The position numbers and the translations under genes were made by a program. The notes under the pieces were generated by a model that saw only the letters and a list, made by a program, of their open reading frames with translations, had not been told where the DNA came from and made no database searches. Shown piece after piece: positions 41,208 to 50,150 of a DNA stretch of 64,000 nt. Origin of the DNA: Candidatus Methanosuratincola sp. (GTDB lineage Archaea; Thermoproteota; Methanomethylicia; Methanomethylicales; Methanomethylicaceae); assembly GCA_037478935.1 (NCBI GenBank), contig JBBFLR010000004.1:1-64000 (forward strand), written 5' to 3'. Positions within the stretch are counted from its first letter, which is position 1; every line of letters begins with the position of its first letter.

Positions 41208-41612
41208 TTGGTGTTCGCTTTGAGAGACATGCCGCGGCTCGTCCTCCTCATGGTTGTCCTGCAGATCCCTCTAGTCGCCATTGACCTTATCTTGCCCTTC
41301 TTCTCGCCTTTCTTCGAGCAATTCGGGACCTTCGACTTCTTCGCAGCCTACATGTTTGCCTTATTCGACTTCATACTGATATGGGGGTTCAGGTCCGGTG
41401 CAAAGTGGGCCTGGCTCTTCGGTCTCCTCTTCAGCGGCCTCAATGTTGTCATGTATGTTTACATGTACATAGCTAACCCGGTTCTGCTGTACGTGATACC
41501 CCTCTTCCTAAGGGTCACTGTGATGTTCTGCCTCAGGAGCGAAAAGGTCCGAGATTACTTTGACATGACTGGAGAGGCGAGGAAAAAGACGACAAAGCCG
41601 CTCAAGAGATGA
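41208..41612 (+). CDS. Four-helix membrane protein, unknown function
   Basis: The 134-residue protein has four hydrophobic segments (about 10-30, 42-62, 65-85, 88-108) and a basic tail (GEARKKTTKPLKR). It starts at a TTG and overlaps the convergent gene by 11 bases. No family recognised. Confidence 0.55.
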   Translation: MVFALRDMPRLVLLMVVLQIPLVAIDLILPFFSPFFEQFGTFDFFAAYMFALFDFILIWGFRSGAKWAWLFGLLFSGLNVVMYVYMYIANPVLLYVIPLFLRVTVMFCLRSEKVRDYFDMTGEARKKTTKPLKR

Positions 41613-42285
41613 GCGGTATTATCTCACTCTTTATGTAGGAGAGGAACTCGGCGGCCTCAACTTCACTGAATGCGGTCACGACCCCGGTCCTGGTGACGCC
41701 TACCACTATGCCATACTTCCTCGACTTGAACACCATGTACCAGATCCCTCCCCTGGACGAGTAGTCTGAATACAGGATTGTGTTTGCAAGACCCGACCCG
41801 TAGAGTGAGAGCTTTTCGATGTTGGGTATATTCACCCCGTCGAAGAATATGATTTTCGTGTCCTCGGGGTTCTGCTCGTGGAACTTCTTCAGGGTCTCCG
41901 GCTGGATCCTGCTCTCCACTATGCCCCCGACCGAGATGAAGAGGATTTTGCTGAGGAGGTTGGCGATGTTGTTCGCAGCCCTCTTCTTCTCTAGCACGAT
42001 GAGGAAGATCCTCTCCCCGGACTTGAAGAATGTGAATGTGGACTCTGAAGTCTTGACCACTGCCTTCTCCCCGTCGCGGTGGTGCACCGTGAAGACATAG
42101 TCCTGGGACAGGACCCCTTCGATCGAGTCCTGCGACATAGTGAGCTTAATTATCTCTGTGATCAGCGGGATCCTCTCGCCGCCGTAGTCAAACTCCTGCT
42201 CGGTCCGGTAGCCCTTGAGCTTACCTGAGATCGTCCCGAGATCTGTTTCCTCCTTTACAATAAAGACCTTACCGGCCATGACCAT
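41602..42285 (-). CDS. Conserved-looking protein of unknown function, coupled to topoisomerase IB
   Basis: The soluble 227-residue protein has alternating beta strands in the N-terminal 100 residues (VFIVKEETDLGTISGKLKGY, DYVFTVHHRDGEKAVVKTSE) and a C-terminal alpha/beta part. No motif that I recognise. It starts six bases after the topoisomerase stop (ATG 42285; 42279 is also possible), so the two are almost surely co-transcribed. Confidence 0.55.
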   Translation of the reverse strand: MVMAGKVFIVKEETDLGTISGKLKGYRTEQEFDYGGERIPLITEIIKLTMSQDSIEGVLSQDYVFTVHHRDGEKAVVKTSESTFTFFKSGERIFLIVLEKKRAANNIANLLSKILFISVGGIVESRIQPETLKKFHEQNPEDTKIIFFDGVNIPNIEKLSLYGSGLANTILYSDYSSRGGIWYMVFKSRKYGIVVGVTRTGVVTAFSEVEAAEFLSYIKSEIIPLIS

Positions 42286-42291
42286 GTGCCA

Positions 42292-43836
42292 TCACTGTCC
42301 CCGTAATTCAGCCGCATTAATTTCCTTTTCTACCCAGGCAAACCTCCTCTGCAGGGACTTGGAGTAGTAGAGCTTCCAGTCAAAATCTATCCGCCGCCCC
42401 CAGTCGGCATAGACCCTGGGGTCGATGTAGTTCTTGAGGGAGGTGTTCAGGTTGTAGTCTTTGGTCGCCTTCATTGCCTTGATCCTGAGTTGGAGCTCCT
42501 TTATCTTTTCGGGCTTGGCGTTCTTCTCCTTCAGTGCCTTGAGCCGATCCTCCTTCTTCCTCAGGGACTCCTCCCAGGTCTTCGGCAGCTTTCTCTTGTG
42601 GTTGCAGACCTTTGCAGCCTCCAGGTTAGCCATCGTCGCGTGGTACTTCTTCACAAAGGCAGGGTCGTCCTTCTCAACATCAGCCTTCTCCAAATAGCCC
42701 TTAGTTGTGGTCGAAGCATGGTAGGTTCTGAAGACCTTGGCGGTGAGCCCGGGCATTATCTCAGCCAGGTACGCGTTCACCTTCTGCGATCTCACGCCGT
42801 TGAATACCGTCTCCTTGCCTTCTTCGATGAACTCCTTCAGGTTTTGGATGACGACTGCGGGGGGCTTGATCGTGCTGACCCACCGCACCGAGTCCTTGCC
42901 GAGGAAATCGAAAGTTACCTCGCCCTTCCCCTCGTCTATGCTTATGTGCTCGGGCCTGAGCGTCGTGGCCCCCACGGTGTCCGCCTCGTCCTCATCCTTC
43001 TCGTCCCCGACCCTCATCTTCAGCGCGTCGATCAGGTAGCAGACCGTCGCGACCTTCCTCTGCAGGGGATCCTGCGACTCTAGGCCCACCAGTATGTGGT
43101 CCCTTACCTCCCTGATTTTTCCCTCGAGCTCCCAGGCTTTATTGAACTTTTCAACATCCCTGACCTGCTTGATGTAAGCGGTGTCCGAGAGCCAGACGTA
43201 CTTCATCTTGTCCCTGAGCCTGTCCCTCCACCTTGCTATCCAGAGCGAGCCAGGATCGAAGATCACGCCGCCCCACCTTCCCCCGTCCGGTGGCTCTGGA
43301 ACAGGGGCATCAGGAGATAGATTCAGCGTGATGTCCTCTGACTTGACTCCTGGCTTCCATCGTCCGCGCATCGGGTGGTCCCCCCTGCCCATGAAGATGG
43401 AGGCGGGCTCTACCATGTAGTTGCTTATCTCCATCGGCATGCCGTTGACGTATGCGTAACCGTACTTCAGCCTGTTCTCCTCCCTTACCCTCTTCCGCTC
43501 GGCAGCCAGCGCCTTCCTCTCCTCCTTTGTCATCGCCTCCTTCTTCGCCTTCACTTCCTCGATCCATCTCGATATTTCAGAGAAATCAAAATCCTCTGGC
43601 TTCACCTTCCCCTTTATTCCCAGGGCCTCCCCGAAGTCGTGGAAGAAATTCCTGATAAATACCTTGTCTGTCGCATACTCCGTCCCAAGCTTCTTGACCC
43701 AGGCGACAGCCATCTCCTCCTGATCCCTGTTCAGCGTGATCTCCTGCCCCCTGAAGCGGATCCTGAAACCGACTGGCTTGTACGCTGGGATGAGCACACC
43801 ATTGTGGGCGAGCGTCTTAACCTCGAACTTCTCCAA
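42292..43836 (-). CDS. top1B: DNA topoisomerase IB (eukaryote-type)
   Basis: The 514-residue protein aligns in outline with the core, linker and C-terminal domains of eukaryotic topoisomerase I. Visible are the N-core GGRWGGVIFDPGSLWIARWR and catalytic Arg in ALKMRVG. It also has the Lys region FLGKDSVRW, Arg in KVFRTYHAST and His in KVCNHKR. A coiled-coil linker (about 405-450) precedes the nucleophile Y470 in NTSLKNYIDPR. It relaxes supercoils by a 3'-phosphotyrosine intermediate. Among archaea this enzyme is characteristic of Thaumarchaeota and relatives. The start is TTG 43836, and the N-terminus is short, lacking the eukaryotic tail. Confidence 0.95.
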   Translation of the reverse strand: MEKFEVKTLAHNGVLIPAYKPVGFRIRFRGQEITLNRDQEEMAVAWVKKLGTEYATDKVFIRNFFHDFGEALGIKGKVKPEDFDFSEISRWIEEVKAKKEAMTKEERKALAAERKRVREENRLKYGYAYVNGMPMEISNYMVEPASIFMGRGDHPMRGRWKPGVKSEDITLNLSPDAPVPEPPDGGRWGGVIFDPGSLWIARWRDRLRDKMKYVWLSDTAYIKQVRDVEKFNKAWELEGKIREVRDHILVGLESQDPLQRKVATVCYLIDALKMRVGDEKDEDEADTVGATTLRPEHISIDEGKGEVTFDFLGKDSVRWVSTIKPPAVVIQNLKEFIEEGKETVFNGVRSQKVNAYLAEIMPGLTAKVFRTYHASTTTKGYLEKADVEKDDPAFVKKYHATMANLEAAKVCNHKRKLPKTWEESLRKKEDRLKALKEKNAKPEKIKELQLRIKAMKATKDYNLNTSLKNYIDPRVYADWGRRIDFDWKLYYSKSLQRRFAWVEKEINAAELRGQ

Positions 43837-44048: not shown

Positions 44049-45800
44049 ATGGCTAAGCTCACTCTGTCTGAGGTGATCCTCGAGAACTTCATGTCGTATG
44101 AGTACGCTAGGGTACAGCTTAACCGGGGGCTCAACCTCATATCCGGCCCTAATGGCGCTGGCAAGTCCTCGATCCTGCTCGCGATATCTGTGGCAACTGG
44201 TCAGAGCTATACCGAGCGGTCAAGGAAGCTCTCAGACCTGATTAGGCGGGGGAAGGAGACGGCACGGGTTACGCTCGTGCTCAACAACACCGCTGTGGAC
44301 GGGAAGCGCCCCGTGCCCCTCATCAACAGCGATCTGATCACCGTCTCCAGGTATCTCAAAAAGGATGGAACCTACTGGTTTGAGATAAACTCAAAAGAGG
44401 CCAGCAAGTTCGACGTGAACCGCCTCTTCAAGAGCGTCGGGATGAATCCCGACAACATGCTGATAATAATGCACCAGAACATGATAGAGGAGTTCGCGAT
44501 AACCTCGCCCGAAGAAAAGCTCAGGATGGTGGAAGAGGCTGTAGGCTTCCTTCAGTACAGGAATGCAATATTCGAGGCCGAGGAGAAGCTGAGCCGCATC
44601 CTTGGGGAGGAGGAGGCAACAACCCAGCTCCTGGGCAGCGCAGAGCAGACGCTGGCATACTGGAAGGATCTTAACGACCGTTACGAAGAGAAGAGGCGCC
44701 TGCTCGACAGGAAGTCCTACTTGGAGAGGGAGATGGTCTGGGCACAGGTCATAAAGGGCGAGAAAGCCGTAGCCTCGATCGAAGAGAGGATCCGCCTCAA
44801 GTCCGCGCAACTCGAGGACCTTAGGGAGGGGATGGCCCAGAAGAAGGCGGCTGCGGAGCAGCTATGGTCCGACTACCTGGCTGAAAAGGAGAGGCTGAGG
44901 GAACTTCTCGCCGGTTCCGGGCGGCTCCAAGAGAGGGGCCTTTCCGACGAACGGCTCGACTCGATAGTGAGATCTTACGTGGACGCCAGGGTCGAAGAGG
45001 CAGTCATGCGGTATCGGTCAAACGAGATAGAACAGGAGATCCGAGACCTGAAATCCGGTCTTGAAGAGGCGAAGAAATCGCTCGCAGAGGTCCAGCGCGA
45101 GATCAAAGACGCAGGAGAGCGCATCCAGACTGCTAGGGCGCTCCTGGAGATATCGGACGAGATAAGGTACGTCAATGCCCACCTTCTCTCGCTTGGCGAC
45201 GTTCCGGATGATGCCCCGTCGATGTATGAGGCATACAAGAAGACCTACCAGGAGTTGAAGCAGAAGGCGGCTGTAGTCGGAGAGAACAGGAAACACCTGA
45301 TCGAGGAGATAGGGGAGCGGAAGAGGATCTGGAGGGAAGTCCTCGAGAGGCTTGTCGCGGAGATAACCCCGATATACCGGACCGTCCTGAGCAGGGTGGG
45401 GGGGACGGGCGATATACGCCTCTCGAACATGGACGACCCAGAGAAGGCGGGGATCGAGGTGACTGTCGGTTTCAGAGGGGCCTCTCCGGTCCTGTTAGAC
45501 GCCTATGCGCAGAGCGGGGGCGAGCGTGCGGTAGCTACCATGGCCTTCCTTCTCGCGCTGCAGCACCAGCTCAAGTCCCCGGTGAGGGCGGTCGACGAGT
45601 TCGACGTGCACATGGATCCTTTCAACAGGGAAGCTATGATGCGGATGCTATTCTCGTTCATGAACGAGAACTCGGACGTCCAGTTCATAGTGATAACCCC
45701 GAGCCAGCTCAGCGCTGTGGGAGACTTTGCTAACATAATCTTTGTACAGAACGTCCATGGCAAGTCGGAGGTGGCAAGGGCTGCCGCAGCAAGGGCGTAG
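44049..45800 (+). CDS. Short SMC-like ATPase, Smc5/6-related
   Basis: The 583-residue protein has an N-terminal half-ATPase with Walker A SGPNGAGKSS (residues 32-41) and a Q-loop near HQNMIEEFA. A coiled coil runs in two arms (about 170-280 and 320-440), and the C-terminal half has signature QSGGERAVATM (from 488) and Walker B VRAVDEFDVHMDPFNRE (D516, E517). The DEFDV-MD-NRE wording is that of Smc6/Smc5, not canonical SMC or Rad50, and no CxxC zinc hook is present. It is half the length of an SMC. GGTGA lies five bases before ATG 44049. It overlaps the next gene by 44 bases. Confidence 0.85.
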   Translation: MAKLTLSEVILENFMSYEYARVQLNRGLNLISGPNGAGKSSILLAISVATGQSYTERSRKLSDLIRRGKETARVTLVLNNTAVDGKRPVPLINSDLITVSRYLKKDGTYWFEINSKEASKFDVNRLFKSVGMNPDNMLIIMHQNMIEEFAITSPEEKLRMVEEAVGFLQYRNAIFEAEEKLSRILGEEEATTQLLGSAEQTLAYWKDLNDRYEEKRRLLDRKSYLEREMVWAQVIKGEKAVASIEERIRLKSAQLEDLREGMAQKKAAAEQLWSDYLAEKERLRELLAGSGRLQERGLSDERLDSIVRSYVDARVEEAVMRYRSNEIEQEIRDLKSGLEEAKKSLAEVQREIKDAGERIQTARALLEISDEIRYVNAHLLSLGDVPDDAPSMYEAYKKTYQELKQKAAVVGENRKHLIEEIGERKRIWREVLERLVAEITPIYRTVLSRVGGTGDIRLSNMDDPEKAGIEVTVGFRGASPVLLDAYAQSGGERAVATMAFLLALQHQLKSPVRAVDEFDVHMDPFNREAMMRMLFSFMNENSDVQFIVITPSQLSAVGDFANIIFVQNVHGKSEVARAAAARA

Positions 45801-46590
45801 CGAGGAGTACTACGAGGAACTGGCAAGGATAATAAACCTCTGCCAGAGCATAAGCACAAAAAGCGACGACCCCTTCCTTGTGGACATACCCCAGAAGCTC
45901 ACAATTCTGAAGCGCCTCCTGCCTAAATGGAAGCTCATCGACGACCTGCTCATGGACGCAGAGGCGATAAAGGAGCTGTCTCTCATGGTGAAGCTCCAAA
46001 GCGACTGGGTGAAGCGTCGTGCCTCGGGGCTTTTCATCGATCCCTTCCTCGTTGAAGTGAAGATAAAACTCCTCAGCAAGGAGTCCTTGGCATATTCCGT
46101 CCTCTCTTCCTGGCACCCTCTGGTCGCTATGGATCAGCTCACCCCTGAGCGCCTCGAGGATGCATTGGATTACTGGAACTCGATCCTCCCGCTCTCACAG
46201 CGGGTCAAGGAGGGGCCCTCAGATCAGACCTCTTCGGACAGGACGGTTGACATAGCAGAGCTCGTGAAGCTGAGGTTCATCTCAGAGCGAACCTTCAACG
46301 AGGACGTTCGGCAGATGCGGTCAAGACTGATCGAATCTGCAAAGGACGGACCTGTTGACTACTGGAGGTTCGTCCTCGCCCCTTCATACGAGGAGACCGC
46401 GATGAATGCATATCGCCTTTCATTTCTGGTCTCGAAGGGCCTGGCCAACCTGATAATTAACCCCATCGAGGAGACCATCCTGGTCGAGCCTGCAGAGGGC
46501 GTGGAGAACAGGCGGGGAGGCCGTTCAGTGGTCATCAGCATAAGCTACGAAAAGTGGAGATCTATGATCAAGGAGGGTGATAGAAAATGA
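45757..46590 (+). CDS. Kleisin-like subunit of the SMC-like complex
   Basis: The 277-residue protein has a helical N-terminal half, an acidic/Ser linker near residues 150-165, and a C-terminal winged helix (about 200-255: SRLIESAKDGPVDYWRFVL, YEETAMNAYRLSFLVSKGLA, NLIINPIEETILVEP). That arrangement matches the ScpA/kleisin C-terminal domain that binds the SMC head. The start inside the SMC gene and the four-base overlap with the next gene mean the three are co-translated. The assignment is from fold pattern and position, not from a strong motif. Confidence 0.5.
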   Translation: MASRRWQGLPQQGRSEEYYEELARIINLCQSISTKSDDPFLVDIPQKLTILKRLLPKWKLIDDLLMDAEAIKELSLMVKLQSDWVKRRASGLFIDPFLVEVKIKLLSKESLAYSVLSSWHPLVAMDQLTPERLEDALDYWNSILPLSQRVKEGPSDQTSSDRTVDIAELVKLRFISERTFNEDVRQMRSRLIESAKDGPVDYWRFVLAPSYEETAMNAYRLSFLVSKGLANLIINPIEETILVEPAEGVENRRGGRSVVISISYEKWRSMIKEGDRK

Positions 46591-47177
46591 GCGAGGACGC
46601 ATCACTCGCAAAAAAGGTCAGGAAGGCAGCCCAGCTCATAATGTACCAGCACCACCGCCTTCCGGGCGTGAAGGGGTATGAACTAAGGAAGTACATCGGC
46701 AGGGACTTCATGAAGGTCGTCTCGCTGCTCCAGAGGAAGCTCGATGACCTTGGGCTTGAGGTGAAGACTGTGTATGCCGACGGACTGGAGCACCATAACC
46801 CGACCGAGGACGAGCTGGAGCAGGCGAGGTTCTATGTCATATCAAAAGCCCCTCTGCAGATGGGGGACGCATCGCTGTCGGGCTGGAGGATTGACACATT
46901 GGCTGTCTTCGCGGCCACCGTGGCATACCTGACCTCGAAGCAGGGCAGGGCGCCCAGGAGAGATGTGGAGGAGCTCCTCCAAGAGAAGTTCCCGGACTGG
47001 AAGATTGACCAGGATCTCAACCGGTTCATCAGGAGAGGTTACCTAGACGAGGACCAGAACGGCGTGCTGTTCATAGGGTGGAGGACGAGGGTCGAGATCG
47101 ACAGGAAGCGTCTCCTCGACATGATAGCGGGTTCTTCACCTGAAAAGGTGGATCTAGAAGCCGGACCCAAGTCCTAG
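46587..47177 (+). CDS. KITE-like tandem winged-helix protein (ScpB / Nse3-MAGE-like)
   Basis: The 196-residue protein shows two winged-helix-like parts. The first, at about 10-90, contains LRKYIGRDFMKVVSLLQRKL and ends in RFYVISKAPL. The second, at 105-175, contains IDTLAVFAATVAYLTSKQGR, DVEELL, a FIRRGYLDE segment and LFIGWRTRVEI. Order and wording resemble the MAGE/Nse3 domain (helix, VLV strand, 'EEEIWEFL', 'WGPRA') and bacterial ScpB. With the SMC and kleisin-like genes it completes a plausible SMC-kleisin-KITE set. Its end overlaps the convergent lhr gene. Confidence 0.5.
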   Translation: MSEDASLAKKVRKAAQLIMYQHHRLPGVKGYELRKYIGRDFMKVVSLLQRKLDDLGLEVKTVYADGLEHHNPTEDELEQARFYVISKAPLQMGDASLSGWRIDTLAVFAATVAYLTSKQGRAPRRDVEELLQEKFPDWKIDQDLNRFIRRGYLDEDQNGVLFIGWRTRVEIDRKRLLDMIAGSSPEKVDLEAGPKS

Positions 47178-50053
47178 GCTCCTGCGTCAAGTCTCCTGTG
47201 GCGGAACCTGCTCTTCAACGCGCTCTTCTCTTCCCTTATTATCATGTCTACGAGCGTATCGAGGTCCTTAATGCTGGAAGTCGCTATCGTGAACGCCACG
47301 GGCTTAGGGATGCCCTTCGAAGCTATAACCATCGCTGCCTGCAGCCCGTACCCTCCAACCAGCTCTCCAGTCTCAACCGCCTCTTTGAGCATGGGCTTAT
47401 GCCTCTCGGACACCTTTCCGAGCTCTGACCTCTCTGACGCCATCTGGGCCACTTCGTTGGTGTCCTCGTCGAGCAGCCCAATCTTGGCAGAACCGCACTC
47501 CGGGCACTTCAGCCCCCCGATGAACCTCTTTATCTTCACGTTCTCGACGAACCTGAAGCATTCGGTGCAGATTGCAACCCTCGCCTCATTCAGGAGCCTT
47601 GCCTTAGCCGACTCGATGAGTAGCCTCCTGAGCCTGTCTGCAGGCACCAGATCCGTCTTCCAGCTGAGCTCCCTTATGCCGACCCTTGAGATCGGAGACA
47701 GCGGCAACTCAGGATCCATCACTCTGACTTTGAACCTCCCTGACTTGATTCCGTCTACAACCGAGACGAGTCCTTCAAGATCCAAGTCCTTTGTGAACAC
47801 TTCGCTCATCGCCTCCTCGTAGACGATGCTCCCCTTCAGATTCTCCACTAGCTGAACCGACCCGACATCGCCTATCTCTGCCTCCTTGCTTATGACACCC
47901 ATCCTCTTGGCTACGTGGATTAGCCTCCTCCTAAAGAGCCCTGTCTTTTCGACAGCAACCTCGGCGACTCTCCGCACCTCGCTGGCTTCGAGCCCCCTAA
48001 GGATCTCTGCCACTAGCGCAGGACTTACATTCGCCTTAACGAAGACCCGGTAGGCATCCTGCGAGGTCCCCGCGCCCACGCCCGTCCTCTGAGTTATCAT
48101 ATACCCGAGTATCCTTGAGAGTGCCTTGTTTATCATAAGACCGAAAGCGCAACTGATTATGACATACCCCTCCCATCCTTCGACCGTCACCACATCGTCT
48201 GTCGGGATCTCCCACCTCCCCTCAGCCTGCTCCTTCAACTCTTGGAGGGCTCTGAAGAGCGTGTCCCTGGATATCGGGTAATCCTTAAGCAATTCATCGA
48301 TGACCGCGTCGTACCCTTTGCCCTGCCTCAGAGCGCTCGCTGCCCTCTTCCTTATTCTGCCGACCTCTTGGGCAACATCAAATGGTACTGGTATCTCGTC
48401 ACCGATCCAGTCGGGTATCGCGCCCGTCGGGTCATCCTCTGCCCTGACGTACACGGTGTTCTTGTACACCTGTACTATCTTCCAAGGGGATCCCCTTACT
48501 ATGAACTTGACACCCGGCTCACCATACTCCGCAACGAATGCTTCATCGAGCAGCCCTATAGCCTCGTCTGTCTTGTCATCAATTACAACGTAGTGCTTCT
48601 CCTCGGGAATCATTGAGAGGTTCTCGAAGTAATATTGATAGAGTGCCTCTGTGGGCCTCGACTTTATGAAGAGCCCCTCCTCTGGGAGGTAGAGTGCGAG
48701 TCTAGGCCTCCTGTTGCTCATATACTCGAGTACCCTTTCTAGCCTCTCCTCTCCCATATTTGAGAATGGGTAGGCCCTCCTCACAATCGAGAGCGCCTCG
48801 CCGACCCCCCTCCTGCCCTCGTCAAGTATAAGCCCCGCGGCTTGGTGGGTCAGCACATCATAGGGACTCTCGATGATCTTGACCTCCTCAAGCTCCTCGG
48901 CCAGCGCCTTCCTTACTATGACTGCGGACTCGAGCGCATCGTCCGAGTCCATAGTTACTATCACGCCCTTCGAGACGCCCCCCACCCAGTGCCCTGAACG
49001 GCCCACCCTCTGGAGCAACCTCGTCACCTGCCTGGGCGAGTTGTACTGTATTACCAGGTCGACATTCCCGATGTCGATCCCTAGCTCGAGCGAGGATGTG
49101 CAGACCACCCCTTTCAGCTCTCCCTTCTTCAGGCTCGACTCGACCTCAACCCTTGATGACTTTGCTAGGCTGCCGTGGTGAATGCTTATCGGTGCATTGA
49201 CATCCCATATCCTGAACCTGCTCGCCAAGATCTCTGCCTCTGATCTCGTGTTTGTGAAGATGAGCGTCGACCTGTTCTTCTCAATCAGCTCTTTCAGCCT
49301 CCTAAGCCTCGCTGCAACCTCCGGGAATGTGGCAAGCTTCTCTGCTAGCCCGTAGTCTTGGCTTTCCGCTTCAGGGAGAATAACATCGAGGGCAAGGTCC
49401 TTTGCGACCGAAACCTGGACGATCTCGCACTCTCTGCCTGACCCGACGAGGAACTTACCCACAAGCTCTGGCGATCCTATTGTCGCTGAGAGCCCGATCA
49501 CCTGGGGCTCGGCTGACGCGATCTCTCTGAGCCTCTCCAGCGCTACCGTCAGCTGGACTCCTCGCTTGTCATTTGCCAGCTCGTGGATCTCGTCGACTAT
49601 TACCCACCTCACCTTTGACAAATGCCTCTTCAGGTTCCTACCTGGGAGCATCGCTTGGAGCGTCTCGGGAGTGGTGATCATTATGTCCGGCGGGGCCAAT
49701 GTTTGTCGCCCCCTCTCCTTCGTTTCGGTATCGCCGTGCCTTACTGCAACCTTAAGGTCGAGCCTGCTGCACCACCAGTGGAGCCTGTCGAGCAGGTCCC
49801 TGTTAAGCGCTCTCAGGGGGGAGATGTAGAGGACCCTGATCCCGCCTGTGCCGCCCTCCCTAATTATGCGATCCAAGACGGGCAGGAACGCAGCCTCGGT
49901 CTTTCCAGTCCCGGTTGGGGCGATGATGAGCACATTCTTACCTTGCATTATGAGCGGGATCGCCCTTCTCTGCGGCTCCGTGAACCCTTTGAAGCCCTTC
50001 TCCAGGACTATCCTCTGGATAGGCTTTGAAAAGACCGAGAAAAGCTCATCCAT
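47174..50053 (-). CDS. Lhr-type superfamily 2 helicase
   Basis: The 959-residue protein has helicase motifs I APTGTGKTEA, Ia PLRALNRDLLDRL, II VDEIHELAND, III SATIGSPEL, IV LIFTNTRSEAE, V ELGIDIGNVDLVIQY and VI QRVGRSGHW. These are followed by the Lhr winged-helix and core regions and a four-cysteine zinc motif near residue 860 (CTECF and CPECG). Lhr-core enzymes are 3'-5' DNA/RNA helicases in repair or RNA metabolism. ATG 50053 was preferred; a TTG at 50074 is upstream. It converges with the SMC operon by a four-base overlap. Confidence 0.93.
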   Translation of the reverse strand: MDELFSVFSKPIQRIVLEKGFKGFTEPQRRAIPLIMQGKNVLIIAPTGTGKTEAAFLPVLDRIIREGGTGGIRVLYISPLRALNRDLLDRLHWWCSRLDLKVAVRHGDTETKERGRQTLAPPDIMITTPETLQAMLPGRNLKRHLSKVRWVIVDEIHELANDKRGVQLTVALERLREIASAEPQVIGLSATIGSPELVGKFLVGSGRECEIVQVSVAKDLALDVILPEAESQDYGLAEKLATFPEVAARLRRLKELIEKNRSTLIFTNTRSEAEILASRFRIWDVNAPISIHHGSLAKSSRVEVESSLKKGELKGVVCTSSLELGIDIGNVDLVIQYNSPRQVTRLLQRVGRSGHWVGGVSKGVIVTMDSDDALESAVIVRKALAEELEEVKIIESPYDVLTHQAAGLILDEGRRGVGEALSIVRRAYPFSNMGEERLERVLEYMSNRRPRLALYLPEEGLFIKSRPTEALYQYYFENLSMIPEEKHYVVIDDKTDEAIGLLDEAFVAEYGEPGVKFIVRGSPWKIVQVYKNTVYVRAEDDPTGAIPDWIGDEIPVPFDVAQEVGRIRKRAASALRQGKGYDAVIDELLKDYPISRDTLFRALQELKEQAEGRWEIPTDDVVTVEGWEGYVIISCAFGLMINKALSRILGYMITQRTGVGAGTSQDAYRVFVKANVSPALVAEILRGLEASEVRRVAEVAVEKTGLFRRRLIHVAKRMGVISKEAEIGDVGSVQLVENLKGSIVYEEAMSEVFTKDLDLEGLVSVVDGIKSGRFKVRVMDPELPLSPISRVGIRELSWKTDLVPADRLRRLLIESAKARLLNEARVAICTECFRFVENVKIKRFIGGLKCPECGSAKIGLLDEDTNEVAQMASERSELGKVSERHKPMLKEAVETGELVGGYGLQAAMVIASKGIPKPVAFTIATSSIKDLDTLVDMIIREEKSALKSRFRHRRLDAGA

Positions 50054-50150
50054 AGAGTTGACCCAAGCTTCCAATCCGTCCTTTCATATATAAAATTCCC
50101 CGGGCATCTGCGGGGCATGCTTATAATCCAAAAACGTCCTATCTTCAGGC

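Follow-up and report, generated by a model that had tools for sequence, protein, structure and literature searches.

Smc5/6 handles chromosomes and repairs DNA, and apart from the archaeal relatives considered below it is known from eukaryotes. Of the three SMC complexes there it is the one least well understood and, to our knowledge, the only one with KITE partners. An archaeal SMC ATPase that groups with Smc5 and Smc6 was named 'SMC5/6-related' by Yoshinaga and Inagaki in 2021, as cited in PMC9389158; as cited there, the 2021 work deals with the ATPase, with no mention found of a kleisin or KITE partner, and a 2023 review restates the archaeal ATPase and describes partner origins as little known beyond Nse1 and Nse3 being KITEs. 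Archaeal Smc–ScpA complexes have been argued to be KITE-less (PMC7055376), Thermoprotei have been reported without any smc, scpA or scpB, and the branching of Smc5/6 before cohesin and condensin is stated as an open question (PMC5228436). Here we describe a three-gene archaeal operon that is likely to encode a single-copy SMC–kleisin–KITE complex belonging to the Smc5/6 branch. Whereas the ATPase type has had its name since 2021, we found no description of its kleisin and KITE partners in the open-access literature (preprints and most subscription papers lie outside this scope).

The operon lies in a window of 64,000 nucleotides, the whole stretch of DNA analysed, from a Candidatus Methanosuratincola genome (1.52 Mb, 37 contigs, 96.5% completeness). 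Its three overlapping genes, read as open reading frames on the + strand at 44049–47177, encode an SMC-type ATPase of the Smc5/6 clade with short arms (44049–45800, 583 amino acids; assigned by Pfam, profile and head tree), an Nse4-like kleisin (45757–46590, 277 amino acids; Pfam Nse4_C and PDB profile) and a KITE subunit with tandem winged helices (46587–47177, 196 amino acids; AlphaFold model and Foldseek). The SMC and kleisin genes overlap by about 44 nt and the kleisin and KITE genes by 4 nt, in keeping with an earlier note on this DNA that had taken the three as one unit. The kleisin frame can also be opened at a TTG at 45742 (45742–46590, 282 amino acids), and the ATG at 45757 is the more likely start, as homologues begin there in the alignment. 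Rfam and tRNA scans of the whole window gave no match. On a second contig (L105, labelled Candidatus Methanomethylicales), copies of the SMC and of the topoisomerase IB encoded beside it are 89% and 91% identical, respectively.

The ATPase matches Pfam SMC_N (5.9e-33), and the Walker A, SGGERAV signature and Walker B motifs that had been picked out from its letters are all present (GPNGAGKSS, QSGGERAV and DEFDVHMDPFNRE). A profile of 20 diverse relatives had Smc5 (9e-70) and Smc6 (1.1e-66) as its best PDB matches, with canonical archaeal Smc at 8.6e-53 and Smc2 at 9.9e-45. The SMC_hinge domain is absent from 20 of 20 relatives, the likely arms of the operon protein, as judged from its letters without a coiled-coil program, run for about 120 residues on either side of the tip, and the 583 residues include no cysteine, so the protein has no zinc hook. 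A hingeless SMC of this kind would reveal which parts of the SMC machine are dispensable. Similar length (approximately 590 amino acids) and archaeal spread might place it among the archaea-specific SMC-related proteins (ASRP: coalescin, Sph), a membership that we regard as extremely unlikely: the ASRP model NF045487 gives 54.8 bits, far under its cut-off of 300, and where, according to PMC9389158, most ASRPs have a zinc hook and their genes have no consistent neighbours, the operon SMC lacks the hook and has two such neighbours. No second SMC-family protein was found by SMC_N in the source genome at its 96.5% completeness; the other matches examined there were, by eye, ABC transporters, ABCE1-like and Rad50-like proteins and one unassigned P-loop ATPase.

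For phylogenetic analysis the head domains were joined into an alignment of 351 columns and 38 rows, with two rows for each eukaryotic SMC, taken from PDB alignments, and none for Smc1, Smc4 or ASRP; a human SMC2 head served as a search query only. This sampling and the long branches of Smc5 and Smc6 limit the tree. The Thermoproteota operon SMCs form one clade with Smc5 and Smc6 (support 100/98), outside which fall bacterial SMC, archaeal SMC, Smc2, Smc3 and SbcC-type outgroups. The heads thus belong with Smc5 and Smc6 by sequence phylogeny, as the earlier note had suspected from their wording, and did not group with Rad50/SbcC, the SbcC rows lying outside all SMCs. We conclude that the operon SMC is very probably of the same ATPase family as the one named in 2021. 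Uniting all eukaryotic SMCs of the tree in one clade was rejected (p = 0.00016), and the tree resolves only weakly in which order the Asgard, Thermoproteota and eukaryotic groups branch (AU p ~0.025 for two alternatives).

The same tree bears on whether the operon could be a shrunken and diverged canonical archaeal Smc–ScpAB that resembles Smc5/6 through convergence or long-branch attraction. Canonical Smc–ScpAB, as found in bacteria and other archaea, is built from subunits of the same three kinds, by the same logic of an SMC homodimer with kleisin and KITE, and the Smc5 and Smc6 branches are indeed long in the head tree. Yet the grouping survives the removal of Smc6 (95/88) or of Smc5 (98/97), and a tree in which the operon SMCs are made to join canonical archaeal SMC is worse by 116 log-likelihood units and is rejected (AU p = 4e-21). 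The operon heads thus sit in another clade, on an SMC that is half as long as the canonical one and hingeless, and the operon kleisin is not ScpA by profile: none of 25 kleisin relatives matches that family. Two Bathyarchaeal genomes moreover hold, besides the operon, a canonical SMC with an adjoining kleisin and a ScpB-like gene (recognized as ScpB by eye). A shrunken Smc–ScpAB is therefore strongly disfavoured and in our estimate improbable.

The second gene encodes an Nse4-like kleisin. Pfam Nse4_C matches its residues 204–278 (32.8 bits, 8.6e-8; cut-off 26) and 14 of 25 diverse relatives, with no match in 14 control genomes, and a profile of 15 relatives, compared with the PDB, found EID3 and Nse4 alone (E = 2.9e-5 to 0.0098). 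The protein comprises an N-terminal helical domain and a C-terminal winged helix, the latter having been foreseen as kleisin-type in the earlier note, whose proposed Foldseek comparison of the second and third proteins placed Nse4 and KITE chains, respectively, on top. Support from fold is weak for the kleisin, as its structure model is poor (mean pLDDT 65) and the best matches, Nse4 in Smc5/6 cryo-EM structures, have low TM-scores; the fourth match is the C-terminal winged helix of ScpA (target TM 0.78), which supports the winged helix and not the subtype.

For the third gene the balance of evidence is reversed. Sequence searches offer little, with no usefully significant Pfam match for the protein itself and nothing found in the PDB by sequence, such that a fold search was needed; among 25 relatives the two commonest Pfam families are MAGE (5 relatives, best E 0.0003) and SMC_Nse1 (3 relatives, best E 0.0016), both weak. 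Its AlphaFold model predicts the expected tandem winged helices (mean pLDDT 82), and the first eight Foldseek matches are chains of KITE-containing complexes (MAGE-G1/NSE1, Nse1–Nse3–Nse4, JetABC and ScpAB). The protein might instead be an unrelated tandem winged-helix regulator, its gene and its neighbours being merely co-inherited and forming no complex, as the silence of its own sequence and the moderate TM-scores (~0.4–0.55) would allow. We consider this very unlikely: of the 350,542 chains compared, those that match best are almost without exception KITEs of SMC complexes, JetB, MukE and ScpB included; MAGE and SMC_Nse1 are the very families most matched by its relatives; and a KITE gene accompanies the kleisin gene at 51 of 51 loci. 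As modelled, then, the third gene encodes one KITE with an Nse1/Nse3-like fold, the MAGE/ScpB-like character noted earlier being upheld by fold; its profile finds one place only in the source genome.

The gene order is itself conserved. Given a KITE gene at every one of the 51 kleisin loci and an SMC gene at 49 of the 54 loci examined, the association of the three is not due to chance; in divergent families kleisin and KITE occur together at 20 of 20 loci, joined by the SMC at 17. At three loci (L078, L084 and L096) kleisin and KITE are present and the SMC is absent from the stretch taken. Downstream lies a convergent Lhr-type superfamily-2 helicase (47174–50074, − strand; Pfam DEAD, DEAD_assoc and WH_Lhr), which adjoins the operon at 28 of 54 loci. 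Upstream, and divergent from it, are a eukaryotic-type topoisomerase IB (42292–43836, − strand; Pfam Topoisom_I 5.6e-68) and an uncharacterized 227-residue protein (41602–42285, − strand; no Pfam match), found beside the operon at 9 and 21 of 54 loci. We propose no subunit role for any of them, and their nature hints at DNA repair or topology; a repair role would fit homology and neighbours alike.

The conserved unit also allows the operon to be compared with SMC-based defence systems of the Wadjet or Lamassu kind, which would direct it against plasmids or phages instead of the chromosome. MukBEF and Wadjet (JetABC) share the SMC–kleisin–KITE make-up, the predicted operon KITE fold matches JetB and MukE, and PADLOC models such as mad3 and LmuB match the operon SMC through its ATPase domain. 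The kleisin and KITE, however, match no PADLOC model, and the conserved neighbourhood contains neither JetD nor another nuclease gene. Unlike patchy defence genes, the operon is near-universal in the source genome's family, and no SMC-family protein besides its own was found in that genome. A defence function consequently appears to us a slim prospect.

Of 398 Thermoproteota genomes, 159 have a match to the kleisin profile (79 of 163 genera), among them nearly every genome of the source genome's family, where ScpA had no match among the genomes listed, the source genome included. ScpA matches 71 of the 398 genomes; 43 hold both ScpA and the kleisin and 116 the kleisin alone, the last count being an upper bound because archaeal ScpA proteins score weakly against the Pfam model. 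The idea that ScpA and the Nse4-like kleisin are mutually exclusive was rejected, as their co-occurrence in these 43 genomes is above chance. In a second phylum, whose identity as Hadesarchaea rests on one contig label, the kleisin occurs in 22 of 28 genomes, mostly as strong matches. Named loci with the operon include those of Bathyarchaeota, Thermofilales, Methanomethylicota, Calditenuaceae and Methanodesulfokora, and the Thermofilales-labelled loci contrast with the reported absence of SMC from Thermoprotei. This wide spread makes chance, contamination or an artefact of a single genome unlikely. Pairwise distances of SMC, kleisin and KITE correlate (r = 0.67–0.80), a relationship to which shared genome ancestry also contributes.

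How far the operon resembles the eukaryotic complex can be stated feature by feature. Alike are the heads, which form one clade, the Nse4-type winged helix of the kleisin, the Nse1/Nse3-like KITE fold as modelled, and the use of KITEs in place of HEAT-repeat partners. The eukaryotic core differs in having two SMCs and two KITEs, whereas the archaeal operon has one of each, its SMC hingeless and short-armed; no Nse5 or Nse6 was seen, and Pfam detected no RING (Nse1) or SP-RING (Nse2) part in the three operon proteins. The earlier note had spoken of a 'complete' Smc5/6 counterpart, which stands for the three types of subunit and falls short for the second SMC, the second KITE, the hinge and the ligase part. 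The operon is homologous to the Smc5/6 core, yet because these four tested features are missing we do not file it as a Smc5/6 complex; it is best read as an archaeal Smc5/6-related complex. As such it would fill a gap left by the claim of KITE-less archaeal SMC complexes (PMC7055376).

By analogy with established SMC-complex mechanics, the product probably works as a homodimer that clamps DNA or drives loops. Two copies of the SMC would pair, with the kleisin bridging their heads: its N-terminal helical domain would sit on one neck, while the opposite cap would take its C-terminal winged helix. On the middle of the kleisin, a KITE homodimer would help to hold DNA. ATP-driven head engagement could then clamp a DNA segment, leading to entrapment or loop extrusion. 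In genomes where this is the sole SMC complex it might serve chromosome organization as well as repair, and where ScpA is also present the operon complex would probably be the specialized one.

From such a single-copy complex the eukaryotic core could have arisen by duplication, of the SMC into Smc5 and Smc6 and of the KITE into Nse1 and Nse3. We find the case evenly poised that the ancestor before these duplications survives in the operon, with a homodimeric hingeless SMC, a single kleisin of Nse4 type and a KITE homodimer. If that were true, the Smc5/6 branch would have split from cohesin and condensin already within the archaea, with KITEs retained, and the Smc5/Smc6 and Nse1/Nse3 duplications would fall close to the time when eukaryotes arose. 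With an archaeal relative that has each of the three core subunit types in single copy, the branching question becomes testable by phylogeny and by biochemistry on a far simpler complex.

In the Asgard phylum, related forms of the kleisin and operon that are more distant occur in 4 of the 196 genomes searched, and the Thermoproteota SMC profile gave nothing closer among the 196 at E <= 1e-45. We tried the Asgard operon as the nearest relative of eukaryotic Smc5/6 and rejected it, as the tree places it outside (93/88). A single-sequence search with its SMC ranks canonical archaeal SMC first, and in view of both results we do not claim it as closest to Smc5/6. Three Asgard loci (L137 in genome G446, L138 in G438 and L139 in G465) have an operon of AAA ATPase, SMC with hinge (831 amino acids at L137), kleisin and KITE. 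Adjoining this Asgard operon are a RING-like protein (Pfam zf-RING-like, E = 0.0013, under the cut-off), an E2/RWD-plus-RING protein and, in two genomes, an E1 of the ThiF family; the one long contig adds an E2 and a JAB protease nearby. If an SMC complex were linked here to a ubiquitin-like system, the parallel would be with the ligase subunits of Smc5/6. In Lokiarchaeota CR_4 (L115:3968–8604), a 1,145-residue SMC is followed by genes for 220 and 196 amino acids that look kleisin-like and KITE-like by eye only, profiles having given no match. A further Asgard locus (L140, G503) encodes a 1,057-residue SMC in which an SSGQK signature replaces SGGE, together with a 313-residue kleisin-like protein that does match the profile and a 176-residue protein of KITE-like size.
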